Assembly (NCBI GenBank): GCA_003963305.1
Contig: RXJR01000004.1
Coordinates: 370,562-434,561 of the forward strand
Length of the DNA stretch: 64,000 nucleotides
From: Candidatus Melainabacteria bacterium
Lineage (GTDB): Bacteria > Cyanobacteriota > Vampirovibrionia > Obscuribacterales > Obscuribacteraceae
Reading direction: 5' to 3'
Position numbers and translations under genes: made by a program. This document shows, piece by piece, positions 14,687 through 20,008 of the stretch; position 1 is the stretch's first letter; each line of letters begins with the position of its first letter. Below the pieces are notes generated by a model. It made no database searches, was not told the DNA's origin, and saw only the letters and a list, made by a program, of their open reading frames with translations.

Positions 14687-15373
14687 ATGGGAGCGATTGA
14701 ATTGGAAACTGCTCACACCACGAAGCAAAAGGAAATCATTGAGCGCACTGAAGAATTTGTTCGGGAGACCCTGAAAGCAGATTCTACCGGGCATGACTGG
14801 TGGCACATCAATCGCGTCCGCAATGTGGCAGTGAAACTTGCCAGAGCCGAAGGAGCAGATCCGTTCATAGTGGAACTGGCAGCATTATTGCATGACATTG
14901 CCGATTGGAAGTTTCACGGCGGTGACATCACGGCTGGTGCCACTAAATCTCGCCAGTGGCTCAGTTCCATTGGTGTCGATGAAACAACACAGGCTCGCGT
15001 TGCGCAGATCATTCTCACAGTCTCTTTTAAAGGCGCTGGTGTAAAAAACGAAGTCGATACGCTGGAAGGTCAAGTCGTTCAGGATGCCGACCGAATCGAT
15101 TCACTCGGTGCAATAGGAATCGCGCGCACTTTCGCGTATGGCGGGCACTTCAACCGCATCATGTACGATCCCGAGCAGAACCCCGTACAACATGAGACTT
15201 TCGAGCAATACAAGTCAAGCACTGGAACGACCATAAACCATTTCTATGAGAAGCTGCTCTTGCTCAAAGACAGATTAAATACAAAAGCAGCCAGAGACAT
15301 GGCTCAAAATCGGCATCAGTTCATCGAGCAGTTTCTGGAGCAGTTTTACGATGAGTGGGAGGGGCGGAAATAA
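14687..15373 (+). CDS. HD-domain phosphohydrolase
   Basis: A 228-residue protein of the YedJ-type HD family: first metal ligand in GHDWWHINRVRNVA, the HD pair in ALLHDIADWKFHGG, and the late Asp in QDADRIDSLGAIGIARTFAYGG. These enzymes hydrolyse phosphomonoesters, often nucleotides, using a divalent metal; the true substrate is not known for most. The ATG at 14687 follows GGAGGAG. It lies 20 bases after the preceding unknown gene and is probably cotranscribed with it. The 81 bases downstream hold the shared element that drives the DUF47 gene. Confidence 0.88.
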   Translation: MGAIELETAHTTKQKEIIERTEEFVRETLKADSTGHDWWHINRVRNVAVKLARAEGADPFIVELAALLHDIADWKFHGGDITAGATKSRQWLSSIGVDETTQARVAQIILTVSFKGAGVKNEVDTLEGQVVQDADRIDSLGAIGIARTFAYGGHFNRIMYDPEQNPVQHETFEQYKSSTGTTINHFYEKLLLLKDRLNTKAARDMAQNRHQFIEQFLEQFYDEWEGRK

Positions 15374-15375
15374 TC

Positions 15376-15435
15376 GAATTACTCAAATTTTATTGCCTGA
15401 AAGAGCAAGCTCGGAGGAAAAACGGCAATAATCTA
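15376..15435 (+). promoter_or_regulatory. 60-bp element shared by the DUF47 and PiT genes, copy 1
   Basis: The left block, from GAATTAC through CAAATTTTATTGC (15376-15396), and the right block GCAATAATCTA (15425-15435) are separated by exactly 28 bases. The same blocks with the same spacing occur before the PiT gene at 17442-17501. TTATTGC and GCAATAA form an inverted repeat. Within the left block TTACTCA and TTATTGC recur 11 bases apart, the period of Pho boxes. TAATCT (15429-15434) may be a -10 box. Regulation by phosphate is inference. Confidence 0.65.
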
Positions 15436-15454
15436 GGTATCCGCGAGGCTCGCC

Positions 15455-16093
15455 ATGTCACCGTCTGTCGATAAATCAAGTTGGTTTGCCAGAGTATTTG
15501 AACCGAAGACCGACTTCTTCGCCCTGCTGAACATACAGTCAGCCACCACCCTTGACGGCATTATCGCGCTGGAACAGTGGATCAATGAAGGAACATTCGA
15601 TCGCTGCCAGAAAGTGCGCGATCTGGAAAACGATGCAGACGAGCACAAACTCGAGCTCGAGCGCAAATTAGTTGAATCCTTTGTCACGCCTTTCGATAGA
15701 GAAGACATCCACGATCTCTCAGTCAAACTCGACGAAGTGATTAACGGAGCAAAAGCAACAGTTCGCGAAATGGAAGCCCTCGATTTCAAAAGCTCCGATC
15801 CATTTCTCAAGGAGATGGCAGCCACTCTCGTTGAAGGAACTCGCTGCTTGAATCAGGCTTTCAACCACCTGCAAAATAATTCGACGGAAGCCTCCAATCA
15901 AGCCAGCCTGGCAAGGAAATCGGAAAAGCGGTTCGCCAAAATCTACAGGCAAGCGATGAAAAATCTATTTACTCTCGATGACTTCAAAACACTTTTGAAG
16001 ACACGCGAAGTCTATATCTGTATGGTGTCATGTGCCACAAAAATCGATATCGTTGGCGAGAAGTTATTACACGTCATCGTCAAGACGAGCTAG
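15455..16093 (+). CDS. DUF47/PhoU-like Pit accessory protein
   Basis: A 212-residue all-helical protein of the DUF47 (PhoU_div) family. Diagnostic features are the N-terminal PKTDFFALLN, the first helical pair with DLENDADEHKLELERKLVE, and TPFDREDIHDLSVKLDEVINGAK, the classic DUF47 motif. Members sit next to PiT-type phosphate transporters and modulate them or sense phosphate status. Here the PiT gene is 1.4 kb downstream on the same strand, separated by an antisense SUKH-ankyrin gene whose 3' end overlaps this one by 14 bases. Both phosphate genes keep the same upstream element, so they likely respond together. The ATG at 15455 has no strong Shine-Dalgarno directly upstream; a GGAGG occurs farther up at 15412. 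Confidence 0.9.
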   Translation: MSPSVDKSSWFARVFEPKTDFFALLNIQSATTLDGIIALEQWINEGTFDRCQKVRDLENDADEHKLELERKLVESFVTPFDREDIHDLSVKLDEVINGAKATVREMEALDFKSSDPFLKEMAATLVEGTRCLNQAFNHLQNNSTEASNQASLARKSEKRFAKIYRQAMKNLFTLDDFKTLLKTREVYICMVSCATKIDIVGEKLLHVIVKTS

Positions 16094-17321
16094 TAAGCTC
16101 GAAATTCTTAAGCTGCAACAGACAATTTTTCAAACCTTCCTCGCCCCTGAAATCATGCAGCACGCCTGCTTGCACCTCCGTTACAGAGCGTTCGAAGTTC
16201 TCTAAAAATCTCTGCTTAGCTCGTGCAAATTCATCTTCAAAGTCGGGCGACGCCGAACAAGCTTGAGCCAAGATGCGCGCGCTTTCATACTCGCCTGCCG
16301 AGGCGCATTGAACGATAGCGATGACGGTGGGCTCAGCCCCGCACTGAAGCAGCGCCCGCATGGCTGGTGCAGGAACAGCCCCACTTATCATGTTATAGAG
16401 GATATCTTTATTGACTGCCGCACGCAGATCGATCAAAGCTTCGAGGGCCTGAAACTTCTCGAGGGCAAAGGCATATTCCACTGGTGATGCGCCTCTTATT
16501 GAAGTATGCAAATTCACACCCGCATTAGAAAGTTCGAAAATCAAATCTCGATCGTCACGCTCTATGCTTTGCCTCAGTGCCATGTTTGCCAGGAGAGGGT
16601 TCTGAGCAAGCGTTTTTTGTTGAAGTGGCGTTCTCCAATCTACAATGGCCTGCCGGTAATACTCCAACACTTTGTCGGCCAGGGTCCTTGAAAGACCTGC
16701 CCGCACAGAGGTTTCCAAAAATGCGGCCAATTCGCCCCCGTCTCGCCCTTCTTCAGCAATCGAATCCTCTTCTAAAAACAACGCTTCAAACGCACCATAA
16801 AGATCCTCAGCAATCGTACCGAATGCATCGCCTCGACGATAATTCCCTTCGCTCCATCCTTGCACCTGTCCACTTTCAGGCGAGGCGCTTACATTTACGT
16901 AAACACGATCTGTGCGGTCGAACCCACCGATTGGAAGGTCCGTAAGCTTTGCCCTCAAGTTACTCGATATCTTAAGCAGGTTGAAACCAGAAGCCGCTCT
17001 GGTGAGTTTACGCTCGTGGTTGATCCAACCTTTTAGATCATTATATGAATCGCTACCGTTGTAAAAAAGTTCTTTCCACTCAAGTGGCTCAACGTTTCCG
17101 TCCATGATGATTGAAAGACGATAGGGAAGACGTCCACCAGCAGTCTGGCTCCAGAGGTCTAGCAGCGGTTTCGGAATCGGTCCAAGGCAATACTTTTGAA
17201 CAGCTTCAATATCTTTCTTCGACATGGGCGGCTGCGCTTCATAAATAATTCGATTTGCAAAAATCACAATGCCGAATTTCCGAAGCGTGGCGATTTCCCC
17301 CTCACAAAATCGCTCATGCAT
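16080..17321 (-). CDS. SUKH (SMI1/KNR4)-domain protein with ankyrin-like repeats
   Basis: A 413-residue protein. Residues of about 30-180 look like a SMI1/KNR4 (SUKH) domain: SKKDIEAVQKYCLGPIPKPLL then DLWSQTAGGRLPY, and later YGAFEALFLEED. The C-terminal part has ankyrin-type helical pairs (LIFELSNAGVNLHTSI, SPVEYAFALEKFQALEALID, MRALLQCGAEPTVIAIVQ, YESARILAQAC). SUKH proteins include immunity proteins against polymorphic toxins and bacterial housekeeping adaptors; the ankyrin part would bind a protein partner. No toxin gene lies beside it. It is antisense within the DUF47-PiT locus. The ATG at 17321 has GAGG about 9 bases upstream; ATG 17225 is an alternative closer to the domain start. Confidence 0.7.
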   Translation of the reverse strand: MHERFCEGEIATLRKFGIVIFANRIIYEAQPPMSKKDIEAVQKYCLGPIPKPLLDLWSQTAGGRLPYRLSIIMDGNVEPLEWKELFYNGSDSYNDLKGWINHERKLTRAASGFNLLKISSNLRAKLTDLPIGGFDRTDRVYVNVSASPESGQVQGWSEGNYRRGDAFGTIAEDLYGAFEALFLEEDSIAEEGRDGGELAAFLETSVRAGLSRTLADKVLEYYRQAIVDWRTPLQQKTLAQNPLLANMALRQSIERDDRDLIFELSNAGVNLHTSIRGASPVEYAFALEKFQALEALIDLRAAVNKDILYNMISGAVPAPAMRALLQCGAEPTVIAIVQCASAGEYESARILAQACSASPDFEDEFARAKQRFLENFERSVTEVQAGVLHDFRGEEGLKNCLLQLKNFELTSSS

Positions 17322-17441
17322 ACTGATTACCTCGCTCCTCGTGACTTTCCAATCGTGCCATGCTAATGGATGTATTCAAATAGAGTCAACATCACAACAT
17401 TGATTGTGGAAGAGAAATCGAAGTAGCTTTTGGAGCAGACT

Positions 17442-17501
17442 GAATTACCCAAATTTTATTGCAAAATCGCGCAGACCATGCCGAAAAGCAGCAATAATCT
17501 A
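17442..17501 (+). promoter_or_regulatory. 60-bp element shared by the DUF47 and PiT genes, copy 2
   Basis: Same arrangement as 15376-15435: a left block from GAATTAC through CAAATTTTATTGC (one C/T difference), 28 bases that differ, then GCAATAATCTA. Similarity continues weakly downstream (ATCC, CGA, GCT). It ends 10 bases before the PiT start codon, so a promoter whose -10 is TAATCT (17495-17500) would give an almost leaderless transcript. Confidence 0.65.
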
Positions 17502-17511
17502 TACATCCACG

Positions 17512-18576
17512 ATGCTGGAGCACCTATTGTCGATTTTAGCTCTGTCAATTCTGGTTTTCTTCCTCAGCGTCATTTTCACCTACACAAATGGGTTCCAGGA
17601 TGGCAGCTCAGTTGCTGCTGGTGCCATTGCATCGCGCGCGCTGACAAAATGGCAATCGATAATTCTAGTTGCCACGTGCGAATTTTTGGGAGCACTGTTT
17701 GGGGGTTCGGCGGTTTCCCATTCAATTCAGTCGCTGACAAGCTGGCGCCATGACCCGAGCCTGCTACCAGTGCTGGCCTCAGCTCTTTTCGCCGCCATCT
17801 TGTGGAATTACATCACCAAAGTCTGTCGCATTCCCTCCAGTTCGACGCACGCCCTGGTCGGCGGCATCATTGGGGCTGTCTACGCGGGCTCGGGTGGATG
17901 GCAAAATATCGGCTGGGGAACCCCCGATCACGTGATGCAGGCGACCGGTGTCTGGCGTGTTGTGTTCAGCCTGTTCCTTTCGCCCGTGATCGGCTTTGCC
18001 GCTGGCTATGCCTGTTTTGTCGCCGCTCTATTAGTTCTCATGCGCGCATCGACACGCGTAAATCGGGGATTGAAACAGCTGCAGATCATAACGACTGCCG
18101 TACTCGCATTTGCCCACGGAGCTAATGACACACAGAAAGCGATGGGCATACTTGTTTTAACTTTGAACGCCGGCGGTTATTTAGCAGGTGATGAAATTCC
18201 TCTCTGGGTGCGACTTCTGAGCGGCACGGCCATGGCGGTGGGCATCGCTTCTCTGGCACCCGGTATTGTCAAAAGAGTAGGTCTGGGAATCTATCGATTG
18301 AGACCATTACATGGATTTGTCACTGAATTCTCTTCTGCCGCTGTTGTATTGATAGGCTCAATTACAGGCGGTCCGGTCTCCGCTTCCCAGGTGATTGCAT
18401 CAACAGTCATGGGTATAGGCACTGCACAGCGAAAAAAAGGCGTGCACTGGCTCGTCGCCAGGGATATGTTGATGGCCTGGTTCCTTACCATTCCATGCGC
18501 CGGAATGCTTGCTTATGGGCTGCACATAGGCATCTTTCACTGGCTTAACGCACTTCTTGCAGCCAGTGCTCACTAA
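17512..18576 (+). CDS. pit: PiT-family inorganic phosphate transporter
   Basis: From ATG 17512 the protein is 354 residues with about ten membrane helices. The two inverted half-repeats of the family are visible: FTYTNGFQDGSSVAAGAIASR near the N terminus and FAHGANDTQKAMGIL in the second half, both variants of the GANDVANA phosphate signature. It imports phosphate as a metal-phosphate complex or with H+/Na+. The partner DUF47 gene upstream shares its 60-bp control element. The frame is open upstream to 17404, but that extension is charged and lies before the membrane segment. The distance from element to start leaves almost no leader. Confidence 0.93.
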   Translation: MLEHLLSILALSILVFFLSVIFTYTNGFQDGSSVAAGAIASRALTKWQSIILVATCEFLGALFGGSAVSHSIQSLTSWRHDPSLLPVLASALFAAILWNYITKVCRIPSSSTHALVGGIIGAVYAGSGGWQNIGWGTPDHVMQATGVWRVVFSLFLSPVIGFAAGYACFVAALLVLMRASTRVNRGLKQLQIITTAVLAFAHGANDTQKAMGILVLTLNAGGYLAGDEIPLWVRLLSGTAMAVGIASLAPGIVKRVGLGIYRLRPLHGFVTEFSSAAVVLIGSITGGPVSASQVIASTVMGIGTAQRKKGVHWLVARDMLMAWFLTIPCAGMLAYGLHIGIFHWLNALLAASAH

Positions 18577-18616: not shown

Positions 18617-20008
18617 TTAAGTCGATCTGCGACGAGTACTGCTGCTGTTCGACGGTTTCTTGCGAGCCCCGCCGCTGCCACCAGATCTGGTGCCGAATTT
18701 TTTATCACCTGAAAACGATTTGCCGGCAGAACGACCGTACGATTTTGATTCTCCGGACTGTGGCTTGCGACCGTATCCGGAACCGCCACCTTCAGTCTTG
18801 CGACCGTATCCAGAACCGCCGCCTTCAGTCTTGCGCCCGTATCCGGAACCGCCACCTTCTGTTTTGCGACCGTATCCAGACCCGCCACCTTCAGTCTTGC
18901 GCCCGTATCCAGAACCGCTACCTTCTGTTTTGCGACCGTATCCAGAGCCGCTACCTTCTGTTTTGCGACCGTATCCAGAGCCGCTACCTTCTGTTTTGCG
19001 ACCATATCCAGATCCGCCACCTTCAGTCTTGCGACCGTAACGAGACTCTCCAGTAGCCGGTTTACGACCGTATCCGGAGCCACCGCCCTCAGTCTTGCGA
19101 CCGTATCCAGATCCGCTACCTTCTGTTTTGCGACCGTAACTCGAGCCTTCCGTTCCGGTGCGGCGTTTGTAGCCTGATTCGCCGCCTTCGGTGCGACGTT
19201 TGTAGCCTGATTCGCCGCCTTCGGTGCGGCGTTTGTAGCCTGATTCACCGCCTTCGGTGCGGCGTTTGTAGCCTGATTCGCCACCTTCCGTTCGGCGTTT
19301 GTAGCCTGATTCACCGCCTTCAGTGCGGCGCTTGTAACCTGATTCGCCGCCTTCTGTGCGGCGCTTGTAACCTGATTCGCCGCCTTCTGTTCGGCGCCTG
19401 TAGCCGGATTCACCGCCTTCTGGGCGGCGACCATAGCCTGATTCCTGACCACCTTCAAACCGGCGTCCATAACGAGGTCGAGCATCACCGCCCTCCGGTA
19501 TGCTACCAGACTCACCTTCTGTGGCACCTTCGCCTTCATTGGCAAGCACTTCAACGTCGAGTTGCTCATCCGGGGCACCATCTGCGGTTACGCCAGAATC
19601 ACTGCGCCAGGTGGCAATCTTTTTGTTGTTCTGACTGACAAATTCCGTCACATATTTGTCTGTTGCACCGAGACGCTTACCATGTGCCAGCAAAATGTAT
19701 TTGAGTGCCTCAGTCAGATACTGACGCAAGTTCATCTTTTCAGCTTGAGCAAGTTCCTCGGCAAGCTCCATCATTCTGGGGCTGAGGAATAAATTTACAT
19801 TGTCTTCTTGCTTCGGTCGCTCTGCTCGACCACCAGTTCTTCCACGTGGACGAGGTTGGTCGATTCCTTGCTCGGAACGTTCCCGGCGCTCTTTGAATGC
19901 CCGCTCACTATCGGCGGAAGCTCTTTGCACACGAGGTTTTCGCGGCTCCGACTCATTGCTGCGTGAACGACCGCCGTCTTCTTTCTTAACCATACCTGCT
20001 GATTCCAT
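18617..20008 (-). CDS. Low-complexity repeat protein (11-residue G/Y/R/K units)
   Basis: A 463-residue basic protein in three parts. Residues 1-70 are Arg/Lys/Glu-rich and disordered. Residues of about 75-130 form a short helical domain (VNLFLSPRMMELAEELAQAE, LRQYLTEALKYILLAHG), possibly a helix-turn-helix or oligomerisation module. From about residue 195 on come roughly twenty tandem units of the types TEGGESGYKRR and TEGGGSGYGRK, ending in a Ser/Lys/Arg tail. Tyr/Arg/Gly repeats of this kind resemble RGG/YG segments that bind RNA and drive phase separation in eukaryotes; whether that holds here is inference. The DNA is a 33-bp tandem repeat, which also leaves a second frame open (18592-19581) that is not considered real. 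ATG 19993 is an alternative start. Confidence 0.8.
   Translation of the reverse strand: MESAGMVKKEDGGRSRSNESEPRKPRVQRASADSERAFKERRERSEQGIDQPRPRGRTGGRAERPKQEDNVNLFLSPRMMELAEELAQAEKMNLRQYLTEALKYILLAHGKRLGATDKYVTEFVSQNNKKIATWRSDSGVTADGAPDEQLDVEVLANEGEGATEGESGSIPEGGDARPRYGRRFEGGQESGYGRRPEGGESGYRRRTEGGESGYKRRTEGGESGYKRRTEGGESGYKRRTEGGESGYKRRTEGGESGYKRRTEGGESGYKRRTEGGESGYKRRTGTEGSSYGRKTEGSGSGYGRKTEGGGSGYGRKPATGESRYGRKTEGGGSGYGRKTEGSGSGYGRKTEGSGSGYGRKTEGSGSGYGRKTEGGGSGYGRKTEGGGSGYGRKTEGGGSGYGRKTEGGGSGYGRKPQSGESKSYGRSAGKSFSGDKKFGTRSGGSGGARKKPSNSSSTRRRST
18775..19440 (-). repeat. 33-bp tandem repeat within the low-complexity gene
   Basis: About twenty consecutive 33-base units encode the 11-residue repeats. 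Two subfamilies lie in blocks: TEGGESGYKRR-type units at about 19145-19440 and TEGGGSGYGRK-type units at about 18775-19140. This suggests two rounds of block expansion and makes copy number prone to slippage or assembly collapse. Confidence 0.85.

Follow-up and report, generated by a model that had tools for sequence, protein, structure and literature searches.

A duplicated two-block element in front of the separated DUF47 and PiT phosphate genes in a member of the Obscuribacteraceae

An element of about 60 bp occurs twice in the window (the whole stretch of 64,000 nucleotides analysed here, positions 370,562 to 434,561 of contig RXJR01000004.1 from a Candidatus Melainabacteria bacterium), once at 15376-15435 before a DUF47/PhoU_div gene and once at 17442-17501 before the gene of a PiT-type phosphate transporter. 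We consider it probable, at roughly 0.7, that this element is the promoter of a DUF47-pit unit, with the right block acting as the -10 region and the left block as an upstream activator site, and that it was copied when the operon was split.

The element and its gene context

Each copy consists of a left block, GAATTACYCAAATTTTATTGC, followed by 28 bp and then by a right block, GCAATAATCTA. The features of the locus, numbered by position in the window and compared with two other members of the genus (labelled G033 and G034), are the following:

14687-15373, plus strand: gene of an HD-domain phosphohydrolase (Pfam PF01966) that precedes copy 1, the same neighbour being present in both congeners
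15376-15396, plus strand: left block of copy 1 (GAATTACTCAAATTTTATTGC), also conserved in G033 and G034, putatively an activator site (about -62 to -43)
15397-15424, plus strand: spacer of copy 1, 28 bp, diverged, its identity to copy 2 being at shuffle level
15425-15435, plus strand: right block of copy 1 (GCAATAATCTA), putative -10 hexamer AATAAT at 15427-15432, invariant in four copies
15455-16093, plus strand: DUF47/PhoU_div gene, 212 aa (Pfam PF01865, E 1.6e-17)
16080-17321, minus strand: orphan antisense gene of 413 aa between DUF47 and PiT, with a 14-bp overlap at the 3' end of DUF47
17442-17462, plus strand: left block of copy 2 (GAATTACCCAAATTTTATTGC), as read from the sequence
17463-17490, plus strand: spacer of copy 2, 28 bp, nearer to the spacers of the congeners than that of copy 1
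17491-17501, plus strand: right block of copy 2 (GCAATAATCTA), putative -10 hexamer at 17493-17498
17527-18576, plus strand: PiT-type phosphate transporter of the PHO4 family (Pfam PF01384, E 1.1e-72), starting at a conserved TTG (17527) with GGAG before it

The first-pass annotation had described two blocks differing at one base, at the same distance in both copies, over a spacer that had drifted and with a whole antisense gene in between, and all of this was borne out: the blocks of the two copies show a single difference (C/T), the gap is 28 bp in both, the spacers match at 15 of 30 positions against a shuffle mean of 14.9, and the open reading frame at 16080-17321 lies on the minus strand between them. 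Similarity between the copies extends slightly beyond the blocks (75 nt at 72%), from GAATTA to just short of the start-codon region. For the full pattern with up to 3 mismatches the chance expectation in the window is 0. The same annotation had proposed searching the genome and its relatives for the pattern and had held that matches at random genomic positions would count against a regulatory site; exactly two matches were obtained in the 7.48-Mb genome, directly before DUF47 and PiT, and those in the congeners precede DUF47.

The PiT gene more likely starts at the TTG at 17527 than at the ATG at 17512, since a Shine-Dalgarno sequence and start codon are then placed 19-25 nt after the right block and the PiT genes of both congeners have the same TTG start. 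For the orphan gene, no relative was found in 50 genomes of the family, Pfam, NCBIfam or plasmids; its codon usage is typical for this genome, and the structure prediction of its product (pLDDT 35) was not usable. By eye, and without profile support, the N-terminal part of this protein recalls the SUKH type and the C-terminal part the ankyrin type. Downstream of PiT, at 18617-20008 on the minus strand, lies a gene made of many near-identical repeats (SGYGRKTEGG units), and similar repeat-rich sequence is found at the same place in both congeners.

Conservation of the blocks and the ancestral arrangement

A looser version of the two-block pattern was scanned against a collection of about 85,000 bacterial and archaeal species, which perhaps did not include the window's own genome, and only two records were returned, the metagenome-assembled genomes palsa_1080 (PLZS01000034.1) and SZAS-4 (JAFEAT010000003.1), which are the two congeners G033 and G034. 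A two-block search of 53 genomes of the order likewise gave matches only in the three members of the genus.

Conservation of the blocks was assessed on only four copies from three species. Any copy of the window is identical to either congener at 27-29 of the 30 block positions. Identity at the four-fold degenerate sites of DUF47 and PiT is only 32-47% across the same species, and relative to these neutral levels the block identity has binomial probabilities of 1e-7 to 1e-11 when columns are treated as independent. Because the blocks are this well kept where four-fold sites are not, the comparison shows both to be under purifying selection in the three species, and the earlier interpretation of the element as a selected cis-acting site and not a recent neutral copy is upheld and strengthened, all four copies keeping both blocks with neutral sites near saturation. 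The conserved bases reach slightly to the left of the right block (GAAAAnC).

The claim of fixed spacing holds for the two copies of this genome but not for the genus: the gap is nearly constant at 28, 28, 29 and 30 bp in the four copies, so that it is not fixed, and this variation is also incompatible with a reading frame spanning the element. The spacer of copy 2 matches those of the congeners at 23 of 31 and 21 of 32 positions, a level reached in at most 1 of 500 shuffles, while the corresponding values for copy 1 (18/31 and 17/32) are not significant. As the spacer of copy 2 is the closer to the congeners, it is copy 1 that has apparently moved further away from the ancestral sequence.

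Both congeners carry a single element, between the HD-domain gene and DUF47, and their PiT gene follows only about 15-18 bp after DUF47 in an apparent operon; DUF47 adjoins PiT in most other genera of the family as well. A DUF47-pit operon is defined by a DUF47/PhoU_div gene and a PHO4-family transporter lying side by side in the same orientation; this arrangement was found, the pair being split in the window itself. The comparison shows that in the ancestral state a single element preceded DUF47 and PiT, which lay close together. The arrangement in the window, with an antisense gene in between and a second element before PiT, is derived, since the congeners have a single element and adjacent genes and the pair is adjacent in most genera of the family. 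The most telling point, which the first-pass annotation could not see from a single sequence, is that duplication of the element went together with the break-up of an ancestral operon.

In a tree of DUF47 and PiT the window's species falls beside SZAS-4 (ultrafast bootstrap 88). For PiT, the branch leading to the window's species measures 0.150, about four times the 0.038 of SZAS-4, and the difference is smaller for DUF47 (0.088 and 0.058); faster change after the operon split or relaxed constraint may lie behind the long PiT branch.

As to how the copy arose, convincing similarity to copy 1 in the region upstream of PiT is confined to copy 2. The 120 bp before copy 2 show weak homology to the end of the HD gene (p 0.02-0.5), which we did not accept. 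Either a tandem duplication of the promoter together with DUF47, with the second DUF47 lost afterwards, or a direct copying of the promoter would fit.

The promoter reading and its alternatives

On the promoter reading, the right block would hold the -10 hexamer AATAAT, which matches TATAAT at 5 of 6 positions, and the transcript would have a leader of about 15-25 nt carrying a Shine-Dalgarno sequence (GAGG upstream of the ATG, GGAG upstream of the conserved TTG of PiT). AATAAT is invariant in the four copies, with Shine-Dalgarno sequence and start codon at a near-constant distance; the start codon follows the right block after 19-25 nt in all four, with GAGG or GGAG in between. A consensus scan of the region found no -35 hexamer TTGACA at 16-18 bp in the element, where the spacer is not conserved, and for want of a -35 did not call the element as a sigma-70 promoter. 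Activator-dependent sigma-70 promoters without a -35 hexamer exist, and positions -62 to -43 are a usual location for an activator site or an UP element. If the -10 is correctly placed, these are roughly the positions of the left block, which, as no -35 is conserved, is predicted to be one of the two; the site of a sequence-specific activator that recruits RNA polymerase is favoured because the block is strictly conserved, its non-A/T positions included, and a specialised UP element would be the less likely alternative. The genome encodes dozens of OmpR/PhoB-like regulators. Differences of 1-2 bp in the gap to the left block agree less well with an activator strictly bound to one helical face. 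A search for a generic -10 signal in 468 upstream regions of this genome gave only weak signals, and AATAAT, unlike TATAAT, has no strand bias in upstream regions of the genome, so that the promoter step is one that we infer. The second copy of the element would keep PiT under the control that governs DUF47 despite the broken operon.

With known activator-dependent promoters lacking a -35 the element would share the -10, here a putative one, and it shares the missing -35 and a conserved upstream site; it differs from them in being restricted to one genus, and its activator is a putative one.

The first-pass annotation had been reminded of Pho-box geometry by the inverted arms and an 11-base period, and had noted that the sequence is no known Pho box. 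A response regulator of the PhoB/SphR type binding tandem repeats with an 11-bp period in the left block, and so placing both genes under phosphate control as in Sinorhizobium meliloti orfA-pit, is the strongest of the rival readings, though an unlikely one. It has in its favour the gene context, the TTAC/TTAT motifs at 11-bp spacing in the left block, the many OmpR-family regulators of the genome and the Pho box reported close to the start codon of orfA-pit, with repression under phosphate starvation (PMC3131613). The consensuses of E. coli PhoB, cyanobacterial SphR and B. subtilis PhoP, written from general knowledge, nevertheless fit all four copies no better than shuffles. Searches with each block, with the dyad and with a two-block weight matrix (the last over 864 kb of the genome) gave no further genomic site above chance. 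The pattern is genus-specific and confined to a single locus, and no regulon was found. A weak intergenic match before a kinase gene (C4:194239) was rejected, being not conserved in a congener. Regarding sites before other phosphate-starvation genes, the search covered pst and the second PiT gene: no pst operon is present, the upstream region of the second PiT gene shows no such element by eye, and the left block does not occur elsewhere above chance. PstB and PstC have no match over the curated cut-off, and no PhoB passes a strict cut-off in the genome, a threshold that only 2 of 14 control genomes pass; Streptomyces pap-pitH1, for its part, has no Pho box (PMC7866108). Neither a Pho-like identity of the element nor a PhoB site is supported, though the two genes may still respond to phosphate.

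Further alternatives concern the inverted arms TTATTGC and GCAATAA, which the earlier annotation had also pointed out and which are indeed perfect over 7 bp in three of the four copies. That they form a dyad operator bound by a repressor or a looping protein, for which the occurrence of only one other instance with an 18-40 bp gap in the genome could also speak, seems improbable to us: dyads this large are found in 5-8% of shuffles, the dyad is broken in G033 (TTATTTGC) with both blocks otherwise kept, and the conserved sequence reaches far past the arms. An RNA leader element, in which the blocks would serve as arms of an attenuator or riboswitch-like stem, has slightly less to commend it still. 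The arms can pair, predicted folds show a small hairpin within the spacer, and copy 2 folds better than its own shuffles (z -2.4), yet folding energy is at shuffle level in three of the four copies, covarying pairs are absent (0 compensatory changes), 2 of the 7 pairs are broken in G033, and a promoter further upstream would be required, none being conserved before copy 2. As copy 2 is a duplicate in origin, the conserved blocks could in principle be a functionless leftover of a small duplicated segment, which we regard as very improbable, given that the orthologous blocks of two other species have retained the same bases although neutral divergence is near saturation, and that both copies here have kept the blocks while the spacer was randomised.

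Phosphate uptake in the family and comparison with known pit operons

PiT-type transporters were found in 49 of the 50 genomes of the family. PstC did not exceed the curated cut-off in any of these 50, nor PstB in the three members of the genus; in 14 control genomes, PstC and PstB pass these cut-offs in 12 and 13. Phosphate uptake in the family therefore appears to rest on Pit alone. In G033 a broken pstB remnant (C181:59748-60301, L137) was noticed, in two fragments with one internal stop, and no other pst gene is apparent among the ORFs listed around it. Candidatus Obscuribacter phosphatis, a non-photosynthetic relative, has been described with polyphosphate genes and a PiT transporter (PMC4040986); the window's species is probably close to it.

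Two known operons resemble the ancestral arrangement. S. meliloti orfA-pit likewise combines an accessory gene with pit behind one promoter, with a control site near the start codon (PMC3131613); that site is a Pho box, whereas here no Pho consensus fits, the operon is split and the promoter is duplicated. In Streptomyces pap-pitH1, which lacks a Pho box, a single promoter drives co-transcription of an accessory gene and pit; the portion of that report available to us makes no mention of a two-block element, and Streptomyces also has PstSCAB (PMC7866108). To the Pho box and the PhoB regulon the element is akin in preceding phosphate genes and in the apparent 11-bp period of its left block; it differs in that the sequence does not fit, no regulon was found and Pst is absent.

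Returning to the promoter reading, it is conceivable, and we put it forward tentatively, that a genus-specific transcription factor of these Pst-less relatives of cyanobacteria controls Pit-type uptake through a new site, and that copying of the promoter kept control of both genes. The locus offers a before-and-after record of the break-up of an operon with promoter duplication, the sister species being intact and the window's species split; what selection has kept can be read from the duplicated copy one base at a time. In a family that seems to rely on Pit and in which no Pst transporter was detected, the element marks a specific candidate site for the control of phosphate uptake.
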